Shown: one piece after another, positions 30,146 through 53,089 of the stretch | Layout: each line of letters begins with the position of its first letter | How positions within the stretch are numbered: position 1 is the stretch's first letter | From: Sediminispirochaeta smaragdinae DSM 11293 | GTDB taxonomy: Bacteria > Spirochaetota > Spirochaetia > DSM-16054 > Sediminispirochaetaceae | Assembly: GCF_000143985.1 (NCBI RefSeq) | Contig: NC_014364.1 | Location: 372,001-436,000, forward strand | Length of the DNA stretch: 64,000 nt | Reading direction: 5' to 3' | Notes under the pieces: model-generated | Databases searched by the model: none | What the model was told of the DNA's origin: nothing | The model's input: only the letters and a program-made list of their open reading frames with translations | Translations under genes and position numbers: made by a program

Positions 30146-31263
30146 TCAGAAGTCGAGGGGGTTTATGACGCTCAATTTATTCTTTTCTGCTATATGGGTG
30201 TAGATCATTGTCGTAGATACATCTGAGTGCCCCATCAATTCTTGTATCGATCGAATATCATAGCCATGTTCTATAAGATGTGTTGCAAAACTGTGGCGCA
30301 GGGTGTGAACGCTCGCATGCTTTTGTATTCCTGCACGGTCCAATGCCTTTTTGAAACTTCCCTGGAGTGTAGACGAGTAGATATGATGCCTGCGTACTAT
30401 TCCACTCATAGGATCGATGGAAAGCTTTGGGGACGGAAAAAGCCAAAACCACTTCCACTCTTTTCCTGCAAGCGGGTATTTCTGCTCTAAGGCAAAAGGC
30501 AGCATGACCCCATTTCGATGTTCTGCCCGATCATCCTCATAGAGGAAATGATTCTACACATAAGTTTGTGCAGGGCTGGGAGACACAAAAGTGCAGCATC
30601 GATTTCCTTTTTCGATAGTACGACGGGAAGCCGTTGTGGGATTTTGGAAGCGACTGTTCCGCTTAGGTCTTCAATGGGAATTGCTAAAACGTAACGATAG
30701 AAATAGAGGAGGGCATTAAATGCTTGCCGTTGTGTTGCTACTGCAACTTTTCGATCGACAGCCAGATACGAGAGATACTTTTTAACATGTTGCTCTGTCA
30801 GTTTATCGGGCATTAGGCGAGTCCACTGGGCAAACCGCTCAACCCATCCAAGATAAGTTTTTTCAGTAGCGTAGGATTTGTGTTGAATCCTGAGGCTTTG
30901 TCGCATTATCCTGGTTGCTTCGTCCCACAGGCGTATAACCGATGATGCTTTTTGTGCCTGAGGTTTGGGATCTTCTGTATTTTTGACTTTTGCTTTATAT
31001 GGGAGAGTCGGTTTATACGGAGTATCGTGTGTTGGGAGTTTACCTGTAAAGCGTAAGTAAAGATAGACCGCTTCCTTTGCCTGTAGAATCTGCCATGGTT
31101 CAAAACGGGCGGAAAGCATTGAAAGATAATCCGCTACAGAACCAGAAGGCCGACCTTTTTTGAAGGCATGATACTTTGCTACCCAGTTTTGCAAATATGT
31201 TGCCTTTTTCTCATTGTAGCGTAGCCTTTCTGTAAGGTAACTATAAAAACTGTTATCTTGCAT
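30146..31263 (-). pseudogene. intI: integron integrase, internally deleted and frameshifted
   Basis: The N-terminal part (from 31263) carries the SAM-like core-binding domain (KTYLGWVERFAQW, HVKKYLSYLAV) and reaches [28 protein letters not shown]. In intact IntI proteins this is followed by the box I Arg region and the catalytic Lys hairpin. Here it jumps at about 30540 into another frame reading [20 protein letters not shown], then RRHHIYSS (in the IntI-specific part), [25 protein letters not shown]. Roughly 50-60 residues, including the first catalytic Arg, are missing and the frame is broken. The remaining His, Arg, His and Tyr are intact. The protein cannot be active as read. It lies divergent from the cassettes, the classical arrangement. 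Confidence 0.9.
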
Positions 31264-33192: not shown

Positions 33193-33876
33193 TTGATAGA
33201 AGCAATCCTTAATAAAAAGATTAGGCAAAACAAAAGATACTGGGAAGATGTTATTTTTTCATCTGTATTTGGTATGCTTAAATATTTGAACAAGGGAATC
33301 CTTTATGATGTACTAAAGAACGCTAAAACTCTAAATGAGAAAGAAAATAAATTTTATTATTTAAAAGATCAACTTAATTTTATTGATAGTGATAATATCA
33401 ATTATGAATTCTGGAAACATCTACAGCTAAAGGATTGTAAAAGATGTGAACCTGATTTGATTATAGAGGGCCCCAATTCAATTGTATGTATTGAAGCAAA
33501 GTATAAATCAGGTAAGAGTAGTAAAAAAGATAATAGTAATGTTCCTAATGATCAATTAGCAAAAGAATATGATAATCTTTCATATTACAAAGGGAAAAAA
33601 CAACTATATTTAATATATTTAACTAGTAGTCTTAGATATCCAATAGAAGATATAAAAGAATCAATAGATGAATATAATAATAAAAGAAAATTACCAATAA
33701 CAATATATTGGTTAAATTGGAATAAAATATACTGTCAATTAGATAAATGCAGACATAATAAAAGAATAATTGATGATATTTGTTTAGTTTTAGAATATTT
33801 TTATTTAGATTACTTTACTCATTTCAAAATAAGTTCTGATAAAGAATATAAAAGAATAGACTGGAGGTTTAGATGA
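33193..33876 (+). CDS. cassette 2 protein A, PD-(D/E)XK-like nuclease
   Basis: 227 residues, starting at TTG with AGGAG seven bases before. A PD-(D/E)XK core is visible: CEPDLIIEG (Asp88), then VCIEAKYKSGKSS (Glu101, Lys103). The C-terminal half has YKGKKQLYLIYLTSS and a helical end. This fold is used by many restriction and defence nucleases. It overlaps the next gene by ATGA. Whether it cuts DNA is inferred from the motif only. Confidence 0.72.
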   Translation: MIEAILNKKIRQNKRYWEDVIFSSVFGMLKYLNKGILYDVLKNAKTLNEKENKFYYLKDQLNFIDSDNINYEFWKHLQLKDCKRCEPDLIIEGPNSIVCIEAKYKSGKSSKKDNSNVPNDQLAKEYDNLSYYKGKKQLYLIYLTSSLRYPIEDIKESIDEYNNKRKLPITIYWLNWNKIYCQLDKCRHNKRIIDDICLVLEYFYLDYFTHFKISSDKEYKRIDWRFR

Positions 33877-34436
33877 ATGATGTTATAGGAATTGTTGAGA
33901 ATATTGAACAGATGAAATCGATACTGATGAGTTTGAAAAAGATGACAAAATATATAATCAATGATTTTGAAGAAAAGAATTGGGAGTTATTAGAAGAAAA
34001 ATATATTTCCGATTGTATGCCAAATAAGAGAAAAGCAAATTATGAAGAACAATTTGATTTACTATTTAGTATGCCAACTGAATTATTTCACGTATTCAAA
34101 TATAGAAGTAGAAATAAAAAGTTTTTTCCATTTATTAATATATTTTTGAATAGTATTAACAATATTAATCAACCAGTTGTTATATATGGAAAATTCATAC
34201 CTAAAGATAAAGTTAAAAAGGATAAATATTGGGAAGAATTTCAGTATGATGCTTCAAAATTAATATTAAATAACGCAATAGAGAAAACAAGTGGTGGGAT
34301 AATTCTGGTAGATGACTTAACAGAAGAAGAAAAGAATGAATTTTATTATATTAAAAAAATAGAGTATAGAATAATTAATCTATTTGAAGTAGATAATGAA
34401 ATTCTGAGTAAATTGATAAAAGAAATAACAACATAA
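33873..34436 (+). CDS. cassette 2 protein B, unknown partner of the nuclease
   Basis: 187 residues, soluble, mixed helix and strand, no motif recognised. Coupled to the nuclease-like gene by a four-base overlap. It could be an inhibitor, sensor or second subunit. Its stop codon lies inside the attC left box (CATAAC), so the cassette has no spare 3' sequence. Confidence 0.65.
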   Translation: MNDVIGIVENIEQMKSILMSLKKMTKYIINDFEEKNWELLEEKYISDCMPNKRKANYEEQFDLLFSMPTELFHVFKYRSRNKKFFPFINIFLNSINNINQPVVIYGKFIPKDKVKKDKYWEEFQYDASKLILNNAIEKTSGGIILVDDLTEEEKNEFYYIKKIEYRIINLFEVDNEILSKLIKEITT

Positions 34437-34607
34437 CAAGCAATTGGAGCAGACGTGGCTACTGTCATGGTTTGTGCTTGAGATTGGGTGAAGCAGAGCT
34501 TGATTTGAAAATGAAAACTCAGATTTGTGAAAGATATGGTATAATGCATGAAGGAAAGAGCACAAACACATGCCAGTGAACGCCACGCAGCTCAATTGGA
34601 TGTTATG
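34432..34607 (+). repeat. attC site 2
   Basis: ATAAC (34433-34437) and GTTAT (34602-34606) with the common arms. The loop of about 95 bases contains TGGTATAAT at 34537-34545. Confidence 0.95.
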
Positions 34608-34635
34608 TTTCAAATGGTTCACTTAATGAGGGCAG

Positions 34636-36267
34636 ATGGAAATAATTGAAAAATTCATAGATGAAATAACAGCTCATTTAGATATTAAGAAATTTCTTCA
34701 TATAAATATGGAAATGAGTAATCAGTACCATTTTCATAATTCAATTAATGAGAATAACTACGATTATATTTTAAAAAACAATATTTATAGCTTTGAAAAA
34801 GATGAGCTCTCAAGAAATTATGATCTAATATTTGGAGTACTACCATTTGGTATTAAGGATTTTAAACAATATCAAAAATATAAAATACCAGTTAATTATG
34901 ATGTAATAATCAATACATTGGAAAAATTAGAGAAAAATGGTCTTGGTATATATACCGTTGAACCTTCTTTCTTTTGGTCTACTAGGGGTAAAGTCTTTAT
35001 TGATCTACTTGAAGAGAAATCTTATTTTATAAATTTCTGTATTGAAGCGCCAAAGGGAATAATACCATATACAAATATTCGACCTTATTTAATAGGTCTT
35101 AGCAAAGAGAAAACAGAACTGTTTATAGGTTCACTTAATGAACTCAATAATGTCAGTGTTTTAATTGATAATTATTTTAATAATAAAAGTTCAAATAATA
35201 TAGATTTTGGAAAACTCGTCGATATAAATGATTTTACAAGTATATCAAATGAAGAGGTTAAAAAAGAGGAGCAGATTTTACTTCAACATTACAAGAATGT
35301 AGAATTTAAAGTAGTCAAAGATATAATTAAAAGCATCACCCCTGTCAAAGATTCAGAGGATTTTAGTAATAGCGAAAATGAAATTTATATAACAAAGCAA
35401 GGAAATCTACCAAGTAAAATAAATCATAAGAACTTCAGTAATCTATTAAAGATAGATGTAAATCATAATTTAATTAATCCTAAATACCTTGAAATATATT
35501 TCAGATCTAGTCTTGGACAGATTTCATTAAAGTCAATACAACTTGGATCTTCAATCCCTTATATAAGAAGAACTGATTTACTTAAAATCAAGATACCAGT
35601 ACCACCTCTCATAGAGCAAAGTGATATTGTAGAAGTTAATGAGAAGTTAAATGAATTAAAAGAAAGAATTGCAAGCCTTGAAAACGAGTTTTCTTTAAAT
35701 CTATCAAGTTCAAAATTTATTTCTGAAAAAATAGAGACTACATTAAATCAAATTAGTCATGATTCTATAAATGACAGAATTATTCATTGTTTAAAAACTG
35801 GCGAAAATAAGAATATTGAATATAAAGAATCATTTTCTCTTAATGTAAAAGAAAAAGAGAAAAACCCTAGAAAAGATAAAGCAATTGAATTATCTGCATT
35901 GAAAACTATTGTTGGTTTCTTAAATTCTAATGGAGGCTATTTACTTATTGGTGTAGATGATAATGCTACAATTTTTGGTATTGAGGATGAACTAAAAATG
36001 TTATTCAAAAATAATAATGATTCCTATCTTCTATATATAAAGGACAAGATAAAAAATAAAATAGGAGTAGAATTCTTTCAATACATTAATTACCAAATTA
36101 CAGATTTTAATGGCACCAAATTATTATTTATAGAAGTTGATAAATCTCCATTGCCTTGTTGCTATGAGAAAAAGGATTTTTATTTACGATTAAATCCAGC
36201 AACTGAAAAATTAGAAGGGAAAGAACTTATCGAATATATATTTAGAAGGTTTCAAAATGAAACATAA
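34636..36267 (+). CDS. cassette 3: degenerate methyltransferase-TRD-AlbA_2 fusion
   Basis: 543 residues in three parts. Residues about 40-170 look like an N6-adenine methyltransferase fragment: YDLIFGVLPFG is where NPPF would be, followed by GLGIYTVEPSFFWSTRG and PYTNIRPYLIGL; no SAM-binding glycine motif precedes it, so it is probably inactive. Residues about 225-350 resemble a type I S-subunit half (SIPYIRRTDLLKIKIPVPPL then IEQ and a coiled coil). Residues about 385-535 are an AlbA_2/Schlafen-type domain (NKNIEYKESF, SNGGYLLIGVDD, DFYLRLNPATEKL). It would recognise a DNA sequence and act through AlbA_2. This domain order suggests a single-protein defence factor; that is inference. Stop lies within attC. 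Confidence 0.75.
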   Translation: MEIIEKFIDEITAHLDIKKFLHINMEMSNQYHFHNSINENNYDYILKNNIYSFEKDELSRNYDLIFGVLPFGIKDFKQYQKYKIPVNYDVIINTLEKLEKNGLGIYTVEPSFFWSTRGKVFIDLLEEKSYFINFCIEAPKGIIPYTNIRPYLIGLSKEKTELFIGSLNELNNVSVLIDNYFNNKSSNNIDFGKLVDINDFTSISNEEVKKEEQILLQHYKNVEFKVVKDIIKSITPVKDSEDFSNSENEIYITKQGNLPSKINHKNFSNLLKIDVNHNLINPKYLEIYFRSSLGQISLKSIQLGSSIPYIRRTDLLKIKIPVPPLIEQSDIVEVNEKLNELKERIASLENEFSLNLSSSKFISEKIETTLNQISHDSINDRIIHCLKTGENKNIEYKESFSLNVKEKEKNPRKDKAIELSALKTIVGFLNSNGGYLLIGVDDNATIFGIEDELKMLFKNNNDSYLLYIKDKIKNKIGVEFFQYINYQITDFNGTKLLFIEVDKSPLPCCYEKKDFYLRLNPATEKLEGKELIEYIFRRFQNET

Positions 36268-36368
36268 CAATCGAATGAACCAGATTTTCCTATGTCAAGA
36301 ATCCTGCTTATCTGCATCGCAGGCAGGATTCTCGCCATGTACGGAAAACTGGTTATTCGGGCGTTATG
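36263..36368 (+). repeat. attC site 3, divergent sequence
   Basis: ATAAC (36264-36268) and GTTAT (36363-36367). Arms TCGAATGAACCAG and CTGGTTATTCGG pair with one extra base on the left; inner arms TTTTCC and GGAAAA. A central hairpin AATCCTGC and GCAGGATT fills the loop. Unlike its neighbours in sequence, so this cassette came from another source. Confidence 0.85.
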
Positions 36369-36461
36369 TTGATACAGTGATGTCCCAGATAGTAAACGGG
36401 GATAATATAATGGTAACTTGATTATTTTTACTGTGTGCAATAACTAAAAATAGAGGAACAT

Positions 36462-38186: not shown

Positions 38187-38729
38187 ATGTCACGACATAG
38201 AGTATTTATAAGTTATCATCACCTGAACGATCAACAATATAAAAATCAGCTCGAAGGCATATTCAGATCATCATATGAAGTCGCATTGTCAAATAGTGTA
38301 CAAATTGGAGATTTGAATCCAAATTTACCTTCAGACCGATTACGTCAATTGATAAGAGATAAGTATATAAGGGATGCTACTGTTACAATAGTATTAATTG
38401 GAACTGAAACTTGGAAAAGAAGGCATGTGGATTGGGAAATTGGTTCATCAATTCGTAAAACTGAATATAATTCTCGCTGTGGATTAATTGGTCTTCTTCT
38501 CCCTACCCGCAGCGACTATTACAGAGATTCTTTTTATCCATATACTATTCCTCCTAGGCTTTATTTGAATGCAAAAAATGGATATGCCAAAATTTACAAC
38601 TGGACAACAAATTTCATGAATCTAAAATACTGGATAGATGAAGCTTTCGATAGACGAAATGTAATAATACCTGATAATTCATTTCCAAACTTTGTAAATA
38701 ATAGAAGCGGAGATCGATGGTATGAATGA
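38187..38729 (+). CDS. cassette 5 protein A: TIR-like (ThsB/DUF1863-type) protein
   Basis: 180 residues. The start SRHRVFISYHHLND is the first TIR strand and loop; VTIVLIGTETWKRRHVDWEI holds the conserved Trp and candidate catalytic Glu84; CGLIGLLLPT and a C-terminal helix complete the fold. ThsB-type TIR proteins of Thoeris defence make NAD-derived signals after phage infection. Here no ThsA-type SIR2 gene follows; the partner is a membrane protein overlapping by eight bases. The TIR call is firm; signalling is inferred. Confidence 0.85.
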   Translation: MSRHRVFISYHHLNDQQYKNQLEGIFRSSYEVALSNSVQIGDLNPNLPSDRLRQLIRDKYIRDATVTIVLIGTETWKRRHVDWEIGSSIRKTEYNSRCGLIGLLLPTRSDYYRDSFYPYTIPPRLYLNAKNGYAKIYNWTTNFMNLKYWIDEAFDRRNVIIPDNSFPNFVNNRSGDRWYE

Positions 38730-39363
38730 AGTTAAACTTATGTTAATAGAAATTGTCGGTGATGAGCTAAGAATTGATATTAGTTTAACTACTTTATTAA
38801 TACTAATTGTTACTATTATTCTAATAACTATACTTTTGAAAAAACAAAAAAATAAAGGAGCTATATTTAAAAAAACTGTTCCTGTAAAAATGCAATATTC
38901 AATTGGTGGACAAACTATTGAATATGAAATTCTTAGAAGTTATAGAAATATAGAAATTGCTCACAGGGTTTTTATTGAAATTATGACTCGCAAAGCTGGT
39001 CAGCCATTTGATCATGAGAACGATGTTATTGTTGAAATATACAACTCATGGTATGAGATGTTTTCCTTGATTCGGAATGAAATAAAGGATATTCCAGGGA
39101 ACTTAATAAAGGGAAATGAAACAACAAAAAATCTTGTAAGTTTACTTATGGATGTACTGAATAAAGGACTTAGACCACATTTAACAAGTTATCAAGCAAA
39201 GTATAGGAAATGGTGGTTATCCCACGAAAAGGAAGAAATATCCCCACAAGAATTACAAAAGAAATATCCAGAGTATGAAGAACAAGTTAGTTCGATACGT
39301 GAAGTAAATATGATGCTTGTTAAATACTGTGAGCAATTAAAGAAGATAATATATGACAAATAG
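38722..39363 (+). CDS. cassette 5 protein B: membrane protein, partner of TIR
   Basis: 213 residues. One strong membrane segment near the N-terminus (TTLLILIVTIILITILL, about 22-38), then a cytoplasmic helical domain with RNIEIAHRVFIEIMTRKAG and YEEQVSSIREVNMM. Not recognised. Its start overlaps the TIR stop (ATGAATGA), so the two are coupled. A plausible membrane effector or receptor for a TIR-made signal. Confidence 0.7.
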   Translation: MNEVKLMLIEIVGDELRIDISLTTLLILIVTIILITILLKKQKNKGAIFKKTVPVKMQYSIGGQTIEYEILRSYRNIEIAHRVFIEIMTRKAGQPFDHENDVIVEIYNSWYEMFSLIRNEIKDIPGNLIKGNETTKNLVSLLMDVLNKGLRPHLTSYQAKYRKWWLSHEKEEISPQELQKKYPEYEEQVSSIREVNMMLVKYCEQLKKIIYDK

Positions 39364-39376
39364 AAACGTTATGCTG

Positions 39377-39475
39377 CATAACCAGCAATTGGAGCAGTCG
39401 TGGCTACTGTCACGGTTCTTGCTTGCGCAAGAACTCGCGCCAGCTTAACGCCACGCAGCTCAATTGGATGTTATG
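39377..39475 (+). repeat. attC site 5, short type
   Basis: ATAAC (39378-39382) and GTTAT (39470-39474), common arms, but a compact loop: TTCTTGCTTGCGCAAGAA forms a tight hairpin. About 99 bases; no TATAAT in the loop. Confidence 0.93.
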
Positions 39476-39571
39476 TACAAAGATTAGTGTTTGAATATCA
39501 TTATTCGCCTAATATTGGGTGAAAAGCATAATTTATAAAAGGATAAAACAAAAAAGATTATACAGTTTTAG

Positions 39572-39607
39572 TTGTCTTTACGTATGAATTGTGGTATATT
39601 TATACGT
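39572..39607 (+). promoter_or_regulatory. promoter with operator for toxin-antitoxin cassette 6
   Basis: TTGTCT (39572-39577), 17 bases, TATATT (39595-39600). ACGTAT (39580-39585) and ATACGT (39602-39607) flank the -10 box as an inverted repeat, a likely autoregulatory site for the ribbon-helix-helix antitoxin. The same arrangement recurs at 52787-52822. Confidence 0.7.
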
Positions 39608-39619
39608 AGGAGGGCTAAG

Positions 39620-39874
39620 ATGAATAAGAAACTAACACTTTCAGTTGATGATTCAATAATCGAAAAAGCAAAAGCATATGCAGAAGACAAAAATGAATCA
39701 TTATCCCAATTGGTTGAAAACTACTTTAGATTATTAACAGCAGATAGAAGAGCTAAAGAAAAAGAAATTTCTCCCTTAGTGAATGACTTAATGGGGACGA
39801 TTACTGTCCCTGAAGACTTTGATTATAAAACAGCAAAATTAGAATATTTGGAAAGTCGGTATTTGAATGATTAA
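39620..39874 (+). CDS. cassette 6 antitoxin, DUF6364/RHH-type
   Basis: 84 residues starting MNKKLTLSVDDSIIEKAKAY, a ribbon-helix-helix strand and first helix, then NESLSQLVENYFRLL. The C-terminal part (TITVPEDFDYKTAKLEYLES) would bind the toxin. TAGGAGGGC precedes the ATG. It overlaps the toxin start by eight bases. It should repress its own promoter and neutralise the PIN toxin. A near-identical copy is at 52835-53089. Confidence 0.85.
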   Translation: MNKKLTLSVDDSIIEKAKAYAEDKNESLSQLVENYFRLLTADRRAKEKEISPLVNDLMGTITVPEDFDYKTAKLEYLESRYLND

Positions 39875-44324: not shown

Positions 44325-45358
44325 GTGAAAAGGGGGCAAGTTTTGCCATTAAACACACACAATAAGAATTCAATGATTATTGTTACAATTTCTATTGGTT
44401 TGTTCCTTATTGCATTGTCTATAGTAGCACCATACTTACTTACAAGACCATCGTCGAATATTTCTTTCTCAAATACTGGCCAGATTGGTGATACTATTGG
44501 TGGACTTACAGCCCCTGTCTTAGCCATACTTGGTTCGTTTTTAACATTTATGGCTTTTTATATTCAATACACGGCCAATAAAATACAAATAGATAATATT
44601 GAAGTACTAAGAAAAAAAGATCAACTTGAAGCTTATGAAAATAAAGTTTTATCAATGCTACAAATGCATCGAAAAAATGTGGAAGAGTTATATTTAGATA
44701 CAGGAAAAGACACACCACCTATTCGGGGTCAAGAATTTATACTATTTATACGTGATCAACTTGAAGAGATTTATAAAATTCTAAAATATGACAATGAACT
44801 AAATAAAAAAGAAAAAACACAACTATGCTATTTGTATATTTTCTATGGAAATTCTTTAGTAACAACTCTAACTTGTACAACAGCTATAATCAGTTTTTTC
44901 ACAATAAAATTGACCTACAGAATGGCGTGTTATATTCGAATGAGTTTGACTACAGTGGTTGGTATTTTGATTTACGCTTTTATAATTATGGTTATGGATT
45001 ATTACTTTCCAGATATTTTAGATTCCAATTTCAAATAGTCAAGTTTATCGATGAATACCAATTTAATAAAAATGATTTTTCCAACGAAGAAATTAGAGAA
45101 ATAAAATATCAATCCGCTAAATTATTTCGCTCTCAATTAACAAACAATGAACAATTATTACTTTATTACAACTCAATAACACCTTTAGGTGGTGATTGGA
45201 ATATTAATAACTATATCAGGAAGTACAAATTGATAAAGAATATTATTTTACCGCAAGTTTTCGGTTATTCTCCAGTTGAGTGGGTAAGAAATGATCTATC
45301 TATGGATCCAATTGAAGAAATAGATTTTTTCGAATTTAAAGATAAGATATATGGGTAA
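44325..45358 (+). pseudogene. cassette 11: putAbiC-like abortive-infection gene, frameshifted
   Basis: The first frame (44325-45038) gives two membrane segments, GQIGDTIGGLTAPVLAILGS (a conserved loop of the family), ANKIQIDNIEV and ends in out-of-frame sequence after about residue 180. The second frame (44825-45358) continues with YFRFQFQIVKFIDEYQFN and FRSQLTNNEQLLLYYNS, the C-terminal half of putative phage abortive infection proteins. One shift near 44840-44890 joins them. GTG 44325 or TTG 44343 (after AGGGGG) is the start. It is either a decayed gene or a sequencing error. Confidence 0.75.
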
Positions 45359-45367
45359 TGTTTACAA

Positions 45368-45543
45368 TATAACCAGCAATTGGAGCAGACGTGGCTACTG
45401 TCATAGTTTGTGCTTGAGATTGGGTAAAGAAGAGCAGAATTGAAAAGTGGAAGCTCTAATCTGTGAAAGATATGGTATAATTCAGAAAGGAAAGAGCACA
45501 AACGCATGCCAGTGAACGCCACGCTGCTCAATTGAATGTTATG
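45368..45543 (+). repeat. attC site 11
   Basis: ATAAC (45369-45373) and GTTAT (45538-45542), long-loop type, TGGTATAAT at 45473-45481. One inner-arm base differs (GCTGCTC instead of GCAGCTC). Confidence 0.94.
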
Positions 45544-45621
45544 TAGATTCAAAAATTCACTCTTATTATAATGAGGATACGATAAATGATTTGATTACTT
45601 TCATGTTTATAGGAGGACATA

Positions 45622-46287
45622 ATGGGAGAAATGGCTCTCGGGTACGGAAGCGAATTTCATCTACTACGTTGGATTGGACGACATAGAAATTTATTTGATA
45701 ATAAGATAAATGAATTACTAAAAATCAATGATATAAATTGGTTGGATTTCAATTTTAATAAAAATAAAAGCATACCAGATGATGAACTAAAAGGCTTTGA
45801 ATTCGTTCCACTCAATAGTATTGTTAGAGACACTTTCAAAAAAGAATGGCCACAATCCGGCAATGTAATGAACTGGGATTTGGTTGGATATTCTAAAAAA
45901 ACATCTACTTGGATTTTGTGTGAAGCCAAGGCTCACATAGGTGAGTTGAAGTCTAAATGCGGGGCTTCGGAAGGAAGTAAAAAACAAATAATAGATGCTT
46001 TAAATAAAACAAAAGAATACTTGAAGATATCAAAAGAAAATAATTGGACAGAACCGTATTATCAATACGCAAATCGATTATATTCTGTATGTCTACTAAA
46101 AAGATTAAACTTTAATGCAATTCTATTGAAAATATACTTCATTGGAGACATGGTACAAAAAAATGTTAGGAATTCACCTCAAAATATCATAGAATGGGAT
46201 ACAGCAATAAATGAAATGAACAATATCATGGGATTGAATGAGGAGTTGGATTTCGTAAAACATCTATACTTGAATACCTTTGAATAA
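45622..46287 (+). CDS. cassette 12: PD-(D/E)XK-like protein
   Basis: 221 residues. Begins MGEMALGYGSEFHLLRWIGR; the core MNWDLVGY (Asp86) and WILCEAKAH (Glu101, Lys103) is a PD-(D/E)XK pattern. The C-terminal half is mostly helical with YQYANRLYSVCLLKRL. RBS TAGGAGGACATA. Likely a nuclease; target unknown. Confidence 0.72.
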   Translation: MGEMALGYGSEFHLLRWIGRHRNLFDNKINELLKINDINWLDFNFNKNKSIPDDELKGFEFVPLNSIVRDTFKKEWPQSGNVMNWDLVGYSKKTSTWILCEAKAHIGELKSKCGASEGSKKQIIDALNKTKEYLKISKENNWTEPYYQYANRLYSVCLLKRLNFNAILLKIYFIGDMVQKNVRNSPQNIIEWDTAINEMNNIMGLNEELDFVKHLYLNTFE

Positions 46288-46307
46288 ATGGTTGAATAAT
46301 AGAACTA

Positions 46308-46483
46308 CATAACCAGCAATTGGAGCAGACGTGACTACTGTCATGGTTTGTGCTTGAGATTGGTTAAAGAAGAGCTTGGGCTAAAAGTAGAAGCACTAAT
46401 CTACCAAAGATATGGTATAATTCAGAAAGGAAAGAGCACAAACACATGCCAGTGGACGCCACGCAGCTCAATTGGATGTTATC
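46308..46483 (+). repeat. attC site 12
   Basis: ATAAC (46309-46313) and GTTAT (46478-46482), long-loop type, TGGTATAAT at 46413-46421. Confidence 0.95.
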
Positions 46484-46562
46484 CAGACTAATTGTCGATT
46501 ATTATACTTTTACAGCGAATAATTACTTGTATTAATGTGTTTTTTGCGATAAAATATTTAAT

Positions 46563-47750
46563 ATGATTGAAGCATTATCTCAATATAATCCCTGGTGGAG
46601 TGGAGAAATCCCTCTTGAAGGCATAATTCCACGAGAAAAGTACTTAAAAAAGTTAGTTTCATATCTTGATAATGAGCAAATAATCTTTCTAACTGGTTTG
46701 CGTCGGATTGGTAAAACAACCTTAATGAAACTTGTTATAAAAGAATTAATAGAAAATAAAGGCATAAATCCAAATCATATTTTATATGTAAGTCTTGATG
46801 ATTACGTATTTAAAGAAAATTCTATATTAGATATTTTGGAAGAATATAGAAAGCTTCATAGAATCTCTGTTGATGATAAGGTTTATTTATTTCTTGATGA
46901 AATCATATATCAAAAAGATTATTACCAACAGTTAAAAACAATTTTTGATAGACAGAATACAAAGATTTATGCTACTTCATCATCCAGTATAAAATTAAAA
47001 GATACAAAAGCTTTTTTAACAGGAAGATCGTATTTGGTCGAGATTAATCCTTTGGATTATAAGGAATATTTGTATTTCAAAAATATAAAAATACCATTGA
47101 AAGATTTAAAGTTAAATGAACCTTATTTTCAAGATTACCTAAAATCAGGAGGAATTCCGTATTATGTTCTGAAAGAGGAAAGAGAATTTCTTATAGGTTT
47201 AGTTGATGATATAATATATAAAGATATTATAAGTGAGCATGGAATAAAAAATCCTCAGATCATTAAAGACTATTTTCTATTACTCATGGAAAGGAGTGGA
47301 AAGCAGTTAAGTATAAACAAGATAGCTAATATTCTAAAAATATCAGTTGATTCATCAAAAAAGTATTTGTCATATTTTAATGATACCTTTTTGATTCGTT
47401 TGTTATCACGGTATGGTACTACGAACGAAAAATTATTGTCGCCCAAAAAGATATATTGTAGTGATCTGGGGATAAAATTTAGTTTTACGGGATTAAGAGA
47501 TCTTGGAAGTTATTTTGAAAACTATATTTATCTACAGTTAAAACAGAATGACGTATATTATCTGTATGAAAATGGAATAGAAATAGATTTTTATGTAAGA
47601 GATATAGATACATTGATAGAATTAAAATACAATTCGAAAATGAATGAAAAACAAGAAAGATTATTTGAAGATTTTAATGCCAGTAATAAAATGGTGATTG
47701 ATTCAGTATATTCATTAGAGGATTTGAATGAGTTAAATCTTAAATTTTAA
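46563..47750 (+). CDS. cassette 13: AAA_14/DUF4143 ATPase
   Basis: 395 residues. N-terminal P-loop GLRRIGKTTLMK, Walker B VYLFLDEIIYQKDY, then AAA_14. The C-terminal DUF4143 part has DLGSYFENYIYLQLK and IEIDFYVRDIDTLIELKY, which resembles a PD-(D/E)XK-like fold. These ATPases are widespread and their role is unclear; some lie in defence loci. TATTTAATATG gives no good RBS. Single gene. Confidence 0.85.
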   Translation: MIEALSQYNPWWSGEIPLEGIIPREKYLKKLVSYLDNEQIIFLTGLRRIGKTTLMKLVIKELIENKGINPNHILYVSLDDYVFKENSILDILEEYRKLHRISVDDKVYLFLDEIIYQKDYYQQLKTIFDRQNTKIYATSSSSIKLKDTKAFLTGRSYLVEINPLDYKEYLYFKNIKIPLKDLKLNEPYFQDYLKSGGIPYYVLKEEREFLIGLVDDIIYKDIISEHGIKNPQIIKDYFLLLMERSGKQLSINKIANILKISVDSSKKYLSYFNDTFLIRLLSRYGTTNEKLLSPKKIYCSDLGIKFSFTGLRDLGSYFENYIYLQLKQNDVYYLYENGIEIDFYVRDIDTLIELKYNSKMNEKQERLFEDFNASNKMVIDSVYSLEDLNELNLKF

Positions 47751-47759
47751 GAATAGCTG

Positions 47760-47934
47760 GATAACCAACAATTGGAGCGGACGTGGCTACTGTCATGGTT
47801 TGTGCTTTGGATTGGGTAAAGAAAAGCTTGGGCTAAAAGTAGAAGCACTAATCTACCAAAGATATGGTATAATTCAGAAAGAAAAGAGCACAAACCACGC
47901 CAGTAAACGCCACGCAGCTCAATTGAATGTTATA
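47760..47934 (+). repeat. attC site 13
   Basis: ATAAC (47761-47765) and GTTAT (47929-47933), long-loop type, TGGTATAAT at 47865-47873. Confidence 0.94.
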
Positions 47935-47996
47935 TCGAATTAGGTAATATTACAGATTGCTGAAATTTTGTTAAGCTTTATGAAAAAAGGGGTAAA

Positions 47997-48905
47997 ATGA
48001 AACAGTTAAAGATACAATCACGAAAGCGCTATAAACAAGGTTTTCATCTTGATGCAATAGAGTTGGAAAGAATTTACTCTATCATTAAAGAACAAATGAG
48101 CAAGATTGAGTTGGGAGATAATGAGAAAATATTTAATTCTTTTCATATAAAATATAAAAATGGTGTTAGAAAAGTTACAAATGAATTAGAAGAAGTTGTA
48201 GCTGAAGAAAATTTTGGTACATTTCTTATTGAAAGAATTGAAATTAATTCATATATATCAAGCAAGGATGAAGAATTAGCTGATTATAGACAAATCTATA
48301 TGGATGACGATGAAGAAGGAATTTCAATAATTTTCGAAAAAGAAATAGGTAAAAGCTTTTTCAATGATAATAATATAAGTTTGATTATAAATGGAAAAGA
48401 ACGTGACTGGGTGATGGTAACAGAATCATTAATTAATGACAGGATAAATTTAATAAAAAGAAATAAATTAGAAATTCTTACCAAACCAAGCTTGAGTTTT
48501 CTATTCGTCATAATAACATTCTCTTTAATGATTTCTATGTTTGTAACATTATATAATTATATCGCGCCTTCAGCGTATATAGATGAAATAGAACAAAAAT
48601 GGATCTCTGGAGTTATAACAGACCCGGTTGAAGTAATTATTAAACTAGAAAAAGAAAAATATGCTAAAGAATTTGGTGTGTCAGTTATAAGTTATATACC
48701 TGCAATTATCGGAGGATCGATAGCTGTTTTGTTATTGATTATTAAAGTCGTAGTCAAAAAATTATATCCTGTTTGTGTTTTTTACTGGGGTGATTACATA
48801 AAATACTTTGATAAAATTGATGGAATTAGAAAAACTATTGTTACTGTAATAATTATTGGGTTTTTAATATCATTAGCTGCTGGTCTTATTGTGAAATATA
48901 TTTGA
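47997..48905 (+). CDS. cassette 14: membrane protein, unknown
   Basis: 302 residues. Soluble N-terminal 165 residues with acidic IYMDDDEEGISIIFE, then three membrane segments (about 165-187, 230-252 and 280-300), separated by a loop with EKEKYAKEFGV. Not recognised. It could be a membrane effector. AAAAGGGGTAAA before the ATG. Confidence 0.7.
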   Translation: MKQLKIQSRKRYKQGFHLDAIELERIYSIIKEQMSKIELGDNEKIFNSFHIKYKNGVRKVTNELEEVVAEENFGTFLIERIEINSYISSKDEELADYRQIYMDDDEEGISIIFEKEIGKSFFNDNNISLIINGKERDWVMVTESLINDRINLIKRNKLEILTKPSLSFLFVIITFSLMISMFVTLYNYIAPSAYIDEIEQKWISGVITDPVEVIIKLEKEKYAKEFGVSVISYIPAIIGGSIAVLLLIIKVVVKKLYPVCVFYWGDYIKYFDKIDGIRKTIVTVIIIGFLISLAAGLIVKYI

Positions 48906-48911
48906 AATCGA

Positions 48912-49087
48912 TATAACCAGCAATTGGAGCAGACGTGGCTATTGTCATGGTTTCTGCTTGAGATTGGGTAGAGACAGGTAGAATTTGAAAGAGAAAGCTT
49001 TAATCTATGAAAGATATGGTATAATGCATGAAGGAAAGAGCACAAACACATGCCAGTGAACGCCACGCAGCTCAATTGAATGTTATA
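48912..49087 (+). repeat. attC site 14
   Basis: ATAAC (48913-48917) and GTTAT (49082-49086), long-loop type, TGGTATAAT at 49017-49025. Confidence 0.95.
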
Positions 49088-49115
49088 TTGCCAGAAATAA
49101 GAAAGGAGGTAAAAA

Positions 49116-49517
49116 GTGAATTTAATACACAACGATATAATTTGGTGGCAGATTTCTTTGTTTCAATTAATGAATGCCTGGTTTCCTGGAATTTCTGCAT
49201 TTTTGTTAGGTATGCTATTTAATAAAATAATTGAGAAAAATAAACTTAAACAATCATTGAAAAACACTTTATTAGAAATATTCATTCCAATATTTAATGT
49301 TGGGAAAGAAATTAGTAAGGAATTAGCTATTAAAACAAAGGATCAATTGAGAAATACATTAAACACTTATTCACAAATATATCCATCATTATTCAAAAAA
49401 GAAAAAATCAAAGAATTGAATGATATTCTAAAGCTTGATCTAATTGAAAAAAGTGGTAAACTTAATGAATATTTTAATAACCCAACAAGAATAATAAAAT
49501 TGATTGAATCTTTATGA
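49116..49517 (+). CDS. cassette 15 protein A: small membrane protein
   Basis: 133 residues from GTG with AAAGGAGG seven bases upstream. One membrane segment (about 18-38, WFPGISAFLLGMLFNKII), then a helical tail. Not recognised. Overlaps the next gene region by 14 bases. Confidence 0.65.
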   Translation: MNLIHNDIIWWQISLFQLMNAWFPGISAFLLGMLFNKIIEKNKLKQSLKNTLLEIFIPIFNVGKEISKELAIKTKDQLRNTLNTYSQIYPSLFKKEKIKELNDILKLDLIEKSGKLNEYFNNPTRIIKLIESL

Positions 49518-49533
49518 AAGTTTTGGAATCAAG

Positions 49534-50013
49534 ATGAAAAATAATAATAAACAAAATAATAAAGAAGATGGTGAAAACAATTTTAAGATTATTGAGAGGG
49601 AGTTAGAATTAAGTCATAGTTTTCTAAGGGTTGAACAATTTTTTAATCCAAAAAGAATACCATTTGAATTCGTTTTTACAAATCCGTTTTCTACCACTTG
49701 TTGTTATTTCACGATTAAGATATCAAGTATTTACTTTAAAGATTTAGTTTCAGATTCAGAGGAATTAATGTTTACAAAAATTAAAAGTGAAAATAATCAA
49801 ATATTGGTATTTCAAAGTACGAAAGAGAAAAAGATTCATAAGAATGAGCCTGTAAATTTTAAAGCATATGCAATCTTAAGAAGTGATTCATTTTATAGAG
49901 GTACTTTTAATAAAGAATCTGCAATAAAAGATCAAAGACATTGGATGCAGTTATCAATATTTGATGATATTGGAGAAATCTCGTGTAGAATTGTAAGAGA
50001 AATATCTGAATAA
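49534..50013 (+). CDS. cassette 15 protein B, unknown soluble protein
   Basis: 159 residues from the ATG at 49534 (a TTG at 49504 would add ten and overlap protein A). Polar N-terminus (KNNNKQNNKEDGENNF), then a beta-rich domain with SHSFLRVEQFFNPKRIP and FKAYAILRSDSFYRG. Not recognised. With A it makes a two-gene cassette of membrane plus soluble part. Confidence 0.6.
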   Translation: MKNNNKQNNKEDGENNFKIIERELELSHSFLRVEQFFNPKRIPFEFVFTNPFSTTCCYFTIKISSIYFKDLVSDSEELMFTKIKSENNQILVFQSTKEKKIHKNEPVNFKAYAILRSDSFYRGTFNKESAIKDQRHWMQLSIFDDIGEISCRIVREISE

Positions 50014-50031
50014 GAGAAAAAAATCTGGCAA

Positions 50032-50172
50032 TATAACAAAACGCTGGACTTGACCCGTCTATTGTCACAGTTTTTGCAGAAGACGTTTCGGGACTAATCG
50101 TCCCTTCACGCAAAAACTGCGCCAATACTTTCGCTTTGCTCAAGCCGCCGGGCAAGTCAGCTCGACGTTATC
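50032..50172 (+). repeat. attC site 15, divergent
   Basis: ATAAC (50033-50037) and GTTAT (50167-50171). Arms CTGGACTTGACCCG and CGGGCAAGTCAGCTCG pair with bulges; the loop holds TTTTTGC and GCAAAAA plus GACG hairpins. A different lineage from the common type. Confidence 0.85.
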
Positions 50173-50206
50173 TGGTTAATATATAAAGTCTAATAAGGAG
50201 AAAGCG

Positions 50207-50860
50207 ATGTATGAAGGAATACCAAGAGTAGTAATGCCTTTAGGGAGAGTTGGACCAAATGGTGTTAATCTTTTAGGTACATGTTTTTTATTACCCAATA
50301 GAGGTTGGTTTGCTACAGCTAGTCATGTAACTGAAAATGACGATAGAAATCTTGTTGTATTAATACCAGAAGAAGAAAGCTTGTCTAATTACCAGGATAC
50401 AACAAAAAAAGATGTAAAAATGATAAATGCAAAAATAATTAAAACTGATCCAATTCATGATACTACAATCATAGAAATAAATGCGGATGTAAATTCAACA
50501 ATTAAAATAGGAAGTTTAGACAGCGTTTCTGTTAATGAAAACGTTGTTCTCTTTGGATATCCTCATGCAAATCATGGAAGAAAAGTATTAACTAGTCAAA
50601 CAACAACAATTGGAGCAAAGATATTATTAGACAATAGTGGAATAAAAAGCAAACATGCAGTTGTTAATATACAAACGAAGCCAGGTCAATCTGGATCTCC
50701 AGTTTTTAGTATTAGAAATAGTTCTATTGTTGGAATATTAATTGGATCTTATGCTCCCCAAAAAAGTGGAGGCATTAGTATAGGTGGAATTGATCCTCAA
50801 ACCCTACACCAAACTTCACATATGGTGTCAGCTGAATACATTCTGAGGATGATAAAATGA
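50207..50860 (+). CDS. cassette 16 protein A: trypsin-like serine protease
   Basis: 217 residues. Triad: FATASHV (His40), DPIHDTTIIE (Asp85), KPGQSGSPVFS (Ser162). No signal peptide, so it acts inside the cell. TAAGGAGAAAGCG before ATG. Its end overlaps the next gene by ATGA. Cytoplasmic trypsin-like proteases are partners or activators in several defence systems, for example for gasdermins; the link here is by context. Confidence 0.87.
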   Translation: MYEGIPRVVMPLGRVGPNGVNLLGTCFLLPNRGWFATASHVTENDDRNLVVLIPEEESLSNYQDTTKKDVKMINAKIIKTDPIHDTTIIEINADVNSTIKIGSLDSVSVNENVVLFGYPHANHGRKVLTSQTTTIGAKILLDNSGIKSKHAVVNIQTKPGQSGSPVFSIRNSSIVGILIGSYAPQKSGGISIGGIDPQTLHQTSHMVSAEYILRMIK

Positions 50861-52551: not shown

Positions 52552-52690
52552 GATAACAACCACTTGGAGTTGACCTGGCGGTGAATATGGCAAAGTTTTT
52601 GTTGATATGGAAAAGTGGGGTTACAATGGTTAATGCGAGTGAGCTAAGGCGTAACAGTAACAGCGCCAGGCAACTCAAGTGAACGTTATG
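52552..52690 (+). repeat. attC site 16, divergent
   Basis: ATAAC (52553-52557) and GTTAT (52685-52689). Arms CACTTGGAGTTGACCTGG and CCAGGCAACTCAAGTG. It belongs to cassette 16; the IS lies between it and gene B. Confidence 0.88.
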
Positions 52691-52786
52691 TACAAAGATT
52701 AGGGTTTGACTATCATTATTTGTTTAATATTGGGTGAAAAGCATAATTTATAAAAGGATAAAACAAAAAAGATTATACAGTTTTAG

Positions 52787-52822
52787 TTGTCTTTACGTAT
52801 GAATTGTGGTATATTTATACGT
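52787..52822 (+). promoter_or_regulatory. promoter with operator for toxin-antitoxin cassette 17
   Basis: TTGTCT (52787-52792), 17 bases, TATATT (52810-52815), with ACGTAT and ATACGT on either side, identical to the copy at 39572. Confidence 0.7.
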
Positions 52823-52834
52823 AGGAGAGCTGAA

Positions 52835-53089
52835 ATGAATAAGAAACTAACACTTTCAGTTAATGATTCAATAATCGAAAAAGCAAAAGCATATGCAGAA
52901 GACAAAAATGAATCATTATCCCAATTGGTTGAAAACTACTTTAGACTATTAACAGCAAATAGAAGAAATAAAGAAAAAGAAATTTCTCCCTTAGTGAATG
53001 AAATAATGGGGACGATTACTGTTCCTGAAAATTTTGATTATAAAAGAGCTAAATTAGAATATTTGGAAACCCGGTATTTGAATGATTAA
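52835..53089 (+). CDS. cassette 17 antitoxin, DUF6364/RHH-type (duplicate)
   Basis: 84 residues, MNKKLTLSVNDSIIEKAKAY; differs from 39620-39874 at about eight residues, mostly in the toxin-facing half (NRRNKEKE, NEIMGTITVPENF). Same promoter, RBS region and overlap with its toxin. Confidence 0.85.
   Translation: MNKKLTLSVNDSIIEKAKAYAEDKNESLSQLVENYFRLLTANRRNKEKEISPLVNEIMGTITVPENFDYKRAKLEYLETRYLND

Follow-up and report, generated by a model that had tools for sequence, protein, structure and literature searches.

A cassette-borne protein of Sediminispirochaeta smaragdinae joining a methyltransferase remnant, a single target recognition domain and an AlbA_2/Schlafen domain

Results

A single-gene cassette in an integron array

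The window analysed here is a stretch of 64,000 nucleotides from the genome of S. smaragdinae DSM 11293. It contains an AT-rich array of gene cassettes, with a left flank of 49% GC, located next to an integron integrase gene (intI). The integrase is split into two overlapping ORFs and the part of the profile between them is missing, indicating that the gene is interrupted or mis-sequenced. The protein of interest (P0001) is encoded by the sole ORF of one cassette, which lies between two attC sites that fold as single strands (Table 1). The attC site of the P0001 cassette falls outside the resident repeat family, which suggests that the cassette came from elsewhere.

The coordinates of the ORF and the motifs quoted from it by the first-pass annotation are exact. 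The GC contents of the three codon positions (0.365/0.225/0.173) are typical of a coding AT-rich gene. An in-frame TGA is located shortly 5' of the ATG, ruling out a longer N-terminus supplied by the cassette. By sequence, P0001 is a methyltransferase remnant, a single HsdS-like target recognition domain (TRD) and an AlbA_2/Schlafen domain in one chain. This three-part order, read earlier from the sequence alone, is real, and the occurrence of relatives that share it supports a design rather than an ORF artefact.

Table 1 Features of the P0001 cassette and its surroundings (positions in the window).
Feature	Position	Strand	Evidence
Integron integrase, two overlapping ORFs	30146..31263	-	TIGR02249, E=2.7e-26 and 3.8e-53
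Left-border attC, from the preceding cassette; about 178 nt, of the resident repeat type	34431..34608	-	Single-stranded DNA fold -31.4 kcal/mol, z=-5.6; repeat families D1-D4
Integron gene cassette holding P0001	34603..36363	+	GTTATGT core sites at 34602 and 36363; attC-like repeats; folds
Possible ribosome-binding site, GAGGG	34628..34632	+	Close to P0001 start; read from sequence
P0001 ORF, 543 aa	34636..36267	+	ORF and quoted motifs re-read from sequence; codon-position GC
N6-methyltransferase remnant, residues 57-160, C-terminal half of Rossmann fold	34804..35115	+	HMM and shuffle tests; AF2/Foldseek
Motif IV position, GVLPFG, residues 67-72 (expected N/D-PP-Y/F)	34834..34851	+	Alignment with HsdM and relatives
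One compact TRD, residues about 220-345, PPLIEQ at 323-328	35293..35670	+	Pfam, PADLOC and PDB matches; AF2
Helical linker, residues 346-388, like S-subunit spacer helices	35671..35799	+	AF2 helices 325-352, 359-373, 375-388
SLFN_AlbA_2 domain, residues 390-526	35803..36213	+	Pfam E=7.7e-18; SLFN structures by sequence
E390, equivalent of SLFN13 E205	35803..35805	+	ExxxxE spacing; PMC5862951
E395, equivalent of SLFN13 E210	35818..35820	+	ExxxxE spacing; PMC5862951
D442, equivalent of SLFN13 D248, second D of GVDD	35959..35961	+	Alignment to 5yd0; PMC5862951
attC of the P0001 cassette	36264..36369	-	Single-stranded DNA fold -28.2 kcal/mol, z=-8.5; not in repeat families D1-D4

Several other cassettes of the array carry genes of defence-like type. 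The preceding cassette (33193-34436) encodes a NERD-type protein matching the candidate system PDC-M15A, followed by an ORF without a Pfam match. A ThsB-like TIR protein (Pfam E=1.3e-18) is encoded in the cassette at 38187-39363; the ORF after it has no family above cut-off, and the two are possibly a Thoeris-like pair. Part of a DUF6364-PIN toxin-antitoxin-like cassette is present twice (39449-39748 and 52664-52963, about 95% identity). Further cassettes at 44825-50860 encode a putative AbiC (PF16872), a PDC-S01 AAA ATPase and a PDC-M35A trypsin-like protein, and the array also carries a PIN toxin pair, an MNT-HEPN pair and a Fic protein. This context suggests a defence content of the array.

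The methyltransferase part is a remnant

The N-terminal part of P0001 on its own has no Pfam match in the protein scan. An HMM built without P0001 matches residues 57-160 with E=9.5e-6 (best of 2,000 shuffles, 2.1), and residues 1-200 match the relative P0005 with E=1.5e-10 (best of 2,000 shuffles, 0.016). In an AF2 model of residues 1-214, pLDDT reaches 70-80 only around residues 91-160. The Foldseek matches listed for this partial model are SAM-dependent methyltransferases, nearly all of them N6-adenine DNA methyltransferases, and include CamA, EcoR124I M and BrxX. Because HsdM rows stood in the model's alignment, we take this match as supporting evidence only. The AlbA_2 part is modelled at low confidence.

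Aligned with HsdM proteins, P0001 is matched only from just before motif IV onwards. Motif I (DPxxGxG), which an active N6-adenine methyltransferase has, is absent rather than mutated, and motif IV (N/D-PP-Y/F) is replaced by GVLPFG. The earlier reading of GVLPFG in place of NPPF, with no SAM motif, agrees with both the sequence and the alignment. The same reading had assumed a dead methyltransferase domain. The loss of the catalytic motifs stands, and the completeness of the domain does not: with motif I and the upstream parts absent and an in-frame stop before the ATG, a complete methyltransferase with dead motifs is ruled out, and the domain is an N-terminally shortened remnant.

A single TRD and a helical linker

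The S-subunit-like half with PPLIEQ, also noticed earlier, is confirmed by profile and structure databases. Pfam Methylase_S matches residues 233-341 with 19.5 bits in the protein scan, against a cut-off of 22, and with 23.6 bits, above the cut-off, in the genome search. The PADLOC profiles Specificity_I and mad5 match the TRD with E about 1e-11 to 1e-12, and the region matches S subunits in the PDB. AF2 pLDDT is about 70-82 for residues 271-350; the full-length model, built from a thin alignment, is of low confidence outside the TRD.

A type I HsdS has two TRDs and spacer helices, whereas P0001 has one compact TRD, shorter than the usual S-half. Although the TRD resembles both HsdS and MAD5 of the MADS system in that it matches both profiles, no MADS partner genes are seen beside P0001, and membership of MADS/MAD5 is ruled out by an equivalog score of 45.8 bits against a cut-off of 400.

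The AlbA_2 domain keeps a carboxylate triad

The AlbA_2 domain recognized by the first-pass annotation is clear in Pfam (65.6 bits against a cut-off of 25.3). The RNase activity of SLFN13 requires E205, E210 and D248 (PMC5862951). P0001 has all three carboxylates (E-E-D), with the exact ExxxxE spacing and GVDD. As judged from sequence, the kept triad fits a nuclease without proving one. P0001 shares the AlbA_2 family and the triad with SLFN13, but SLFN13 is a two-lobed pseudo-dimer without a methyltransferase or TRD, whereas P0001 has a single AlbA_2 match and so lacks the two-lobed pseudo-dimeric core of animal-type Schlafens. For many AlbA_2 domains the annotation goes no further than nucleic-acid binding.

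Relatives carry interchangeable C-terminal modules

Five relatives share the front half of P0001: one with an AlbA_2 end (P0002) and four with a HEPN-like end. Four of the five (P0002, P0005, P0006 and a Gordonia protein) sit among type I restriction-modification (R-M) genes. The search for homologues of the same order and their neighbours, proposed with the first-pass annotation, thus yielded P0002, in a type I R-M locus.

P0002 (WP_089369358.1, annotated 'N-6 DNA methylase') is encoded on a plasmid of P. nigrifaciens (Pseudoalteromonas). Like P0001, it consists of an altered N6-methyltransferase (DPSFCIG at motif I and FPPI at motif IV), one TRD and an AlbA_2 domain with the triad, and the two proteins are 27% identical over the TRD and AlbA_2. 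It differs from P0001 in its length of 783 aa, its full-length methyltransferase domain and its position among hsdM, hsdS and hsdR. The locus also has a separate AlbA_2-HATPase protein. The gene directly upstream of the relative (L036:3527-4462) encodes an Mrr-like endonuclease matching PDC-S02.

P0005 and P0006 come from two genomes of the host's phylum, both from type I R-M loci. P0005 has a motif-I-like DPWAGFG and SVLPFG at motif IV. Since VLPFG also occurs in this untruncated protein, motif IV probably changed before P0001 was truncated. Homologues with complete SAM motifs had been named beforehand as evidence against the first-pass reading, and this applies only in part: P0006 keeps DPTCGSG but has DPPL at motif IV, and motif IV is altered in the other compared relatives. 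Where P0001 has AlbA_2, P0005 and P0006 carry a C-terminal module about 300 residues long that contains an MRNxxxGH motif. This module, found in P0005, P0006 and P0007 and without a Pfam match, is read as HEPN-like by its motif. Proteins encoded on Streptomyces and Gordonia plasmids match it; the Gordonia gene is beside a type I restriction gene, whereas the Streptomyces protein (WP_327425440.1) is outside a type I R-M locus, unlike P0005 and P0006. The output domains differ on a shared front half, with AlbA_2 in P0001 and P0002 and a HEPN-like module in P0005, P0006 and P0007.

Across 393 genomes of the phylum, and in pattern scans that were not exhaustive, no protein closely homologous to the shortened form turned up, and the sister species (G001) lacks the gene. 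Genome-wide pattern scans returned nothing or ordinary S subunits. A phage origin was rejected: a search of 50,697 phage records gave no match, and IMG/VR, searched with P0001, A2, A3, A4 and P0002, gave no confirmed one. L066 (genome G333) is an ordinary HsdM-TRD fusion with NPPF. Several other AlbA_2 matches, in Spirochaetota-type relatives (L003, L004, L012 and L013), are apparently membrane-anchored AlbA_2 proteins without a methyltransferase.

The host has no detectable HsdM or HsdR

The host genome (4.65 Mb, one contig) was searched by profile. It has no match to PF02384 (N6_Mtase), PF04313 (HSDR_N) or PF07669 (Eco57I), all of which match in control genomes. With PF02384 and PF04313 unmatched, no set of hsdM, hsdS and hsdR is detected in this host. 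Other methyltransferase families (PF01555 and PF02086) are present, as are one further Methylase_S gene and one further AlbA_2 gene. The description of P0001 as stand-alone is supported, both by gene position and by the lack of a detectable HsdM or HsdR in the genome.

An orphan 441-aa single-TRD protein is encoded next to a purB-like gene (L075:9080-10402, minus strand; G000:C1:2550079-2551401). It is 95% identical in G001 and has a VFPFG motif in its N-terminal half. It was rejected as a second dead-methyltransferase protein, its N-terminal part having no match to the methyltransferase profile.

Discussion

The likeliest reading, which we propose tentatively and with somewhat less than even confidence, is that P0001 belongs to a modular group associated with type I R-M and represents it in stand-alone form on a cassette. 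It would be an offshoot of a type I R-M accessory protein in which a non-catalytic DNA reader carries a swappable output, probably of RNase type. The methyltransferase remnant and the single TRD, parts assigned by homology, would form a non-catalytic platform that docks on DNA. The C-terminal output would be kept inactive until the platform encounters its target on invading DNA or the docking complex is disturbed, and would be freed at that point. The freed output would then cut RNA, possibly tRNA by analogy with SLFN13, halting growth or phage replication. Because no HsdM was found in the host, self-protection would depend not on cognate methylation but on a rare target, low expression or a second trigger. 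The first-pass annotation had proposed a sensor of unmodified DNA. This part is unsupported: P0001 lacks the SAM pocket and NPPF and with them any obvious means of sensing adenine methylation, and the host search turned up no HsdM that would protect self. For the possible new defence type of the same annotation, the strongest support is contextual: the integron is rich in defence-like genes, and relatives sit among type I R-M genes.

The association with type I R-M also permits a regulatory role, in which AlbA_2 only binds nucleic acid and P0001 tunes the expression or assembly of R-M enzymes acquired occasionally. The relatives inside type I R-M operons and the separate AlbA_2-HATPase protein in the P. 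nigrifaciens locus speak for such a regulator or assembly factor; we consider it unlikely, as no HsdM or HsdR was found in the host and the full carboxylate triad is kept. The lack of a type I system detectable in the host is, on the other hand, what would favour a decoy for anti-restriction or immunity, a half-M/half-S platform that poisons incoming type I complexes and so permits DNA uptake or confers resistance to selfish R-M elements. Being built of M and S parts, such a protein might plausibly be incorporated into the M2S assemblies of type I enzymes. This role would, however, leave an AlbA_2 domain with an intact triad without a function, and the relatives coexist with R-M genes; we regard it as very improbable.

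P0001 might instead be the product of a 5'-truncated gene, captured in a cassette, whose function is lost. Compared with P0002, P0005 and P0006, P0001 lacks motif I together with all the sequence that precedes it; the gene is absent from G001, and no close homologue was found that would allow a test of selection. Against this, the ORF is intact over 543 codons with coding-type codon positions, all three domains are recognizable with the AlbA_2 triad kept, and the change at motif IV, common to untruncated P0005, probably predates the truncation. We judge a relic to be unlikely.

Within the proposal of a DNA reader with a swappable output, a more specific version can be formulated, in which P0001 is a one-gene, integron-mobile immune device: its Schlafen RNase would be gated directly by the dead methyltransferase-TRD platform, in a host without a type I methyltransferase. 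P0001 would then represent one form of a modular class of 'dead methyltransferase reader plus swappable RNase', with AlbA_2 or a HEPN-like module as the RNase, that arose from accessory proteins of type I R-M. We consider this version rather doubtful as yet.

Our limited search of the open literature found no description of a dead methyltransferase-TRD-Schlafen fusion. Single-chain enzymes such as 7eew, PglX/BrxX and type IIG also combine a methyltransferase and a TRD, but they are complete methyltransferases, whereas P0001 is without motif I and NPPF. The nearest known arrangements are WP_089369358.1 and the methyltransferase-TRD-HEPN-like proteins described above. In BREX-type loci, according to a 2026 survey, Schlafen and HEPN RNases serve as stand-by effectors (PMC12839542). 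A 2025 preprint by Taboada et al., as cited in that survey, places bacterial Schlafens in phage defence; to the extent of that citation, these proteins would resemble P0001 in having a Schlafen effector in a bacterial immune context. According to a 2013 survey, HEPN domains in R-M systems join nucleases, helicases and ATPases, and not methylases (PMC3710099). The occurrence of AlbA_2 and HEPN-like modules on methylase-TRD scaffolds with altered methylase motifs indicates that this rule may become 'not to working methylases'.

Taken together, the architecture suggests a one-protein alarm against foreign DNA. Should this prove right, a restriction enzyme's DNA-reading half would have been reused as an RNase-triggering sensor that can be moved as a single integron cassette, and P0001 makes it testable how such a sensor spares self without a matching host methyltransferase.
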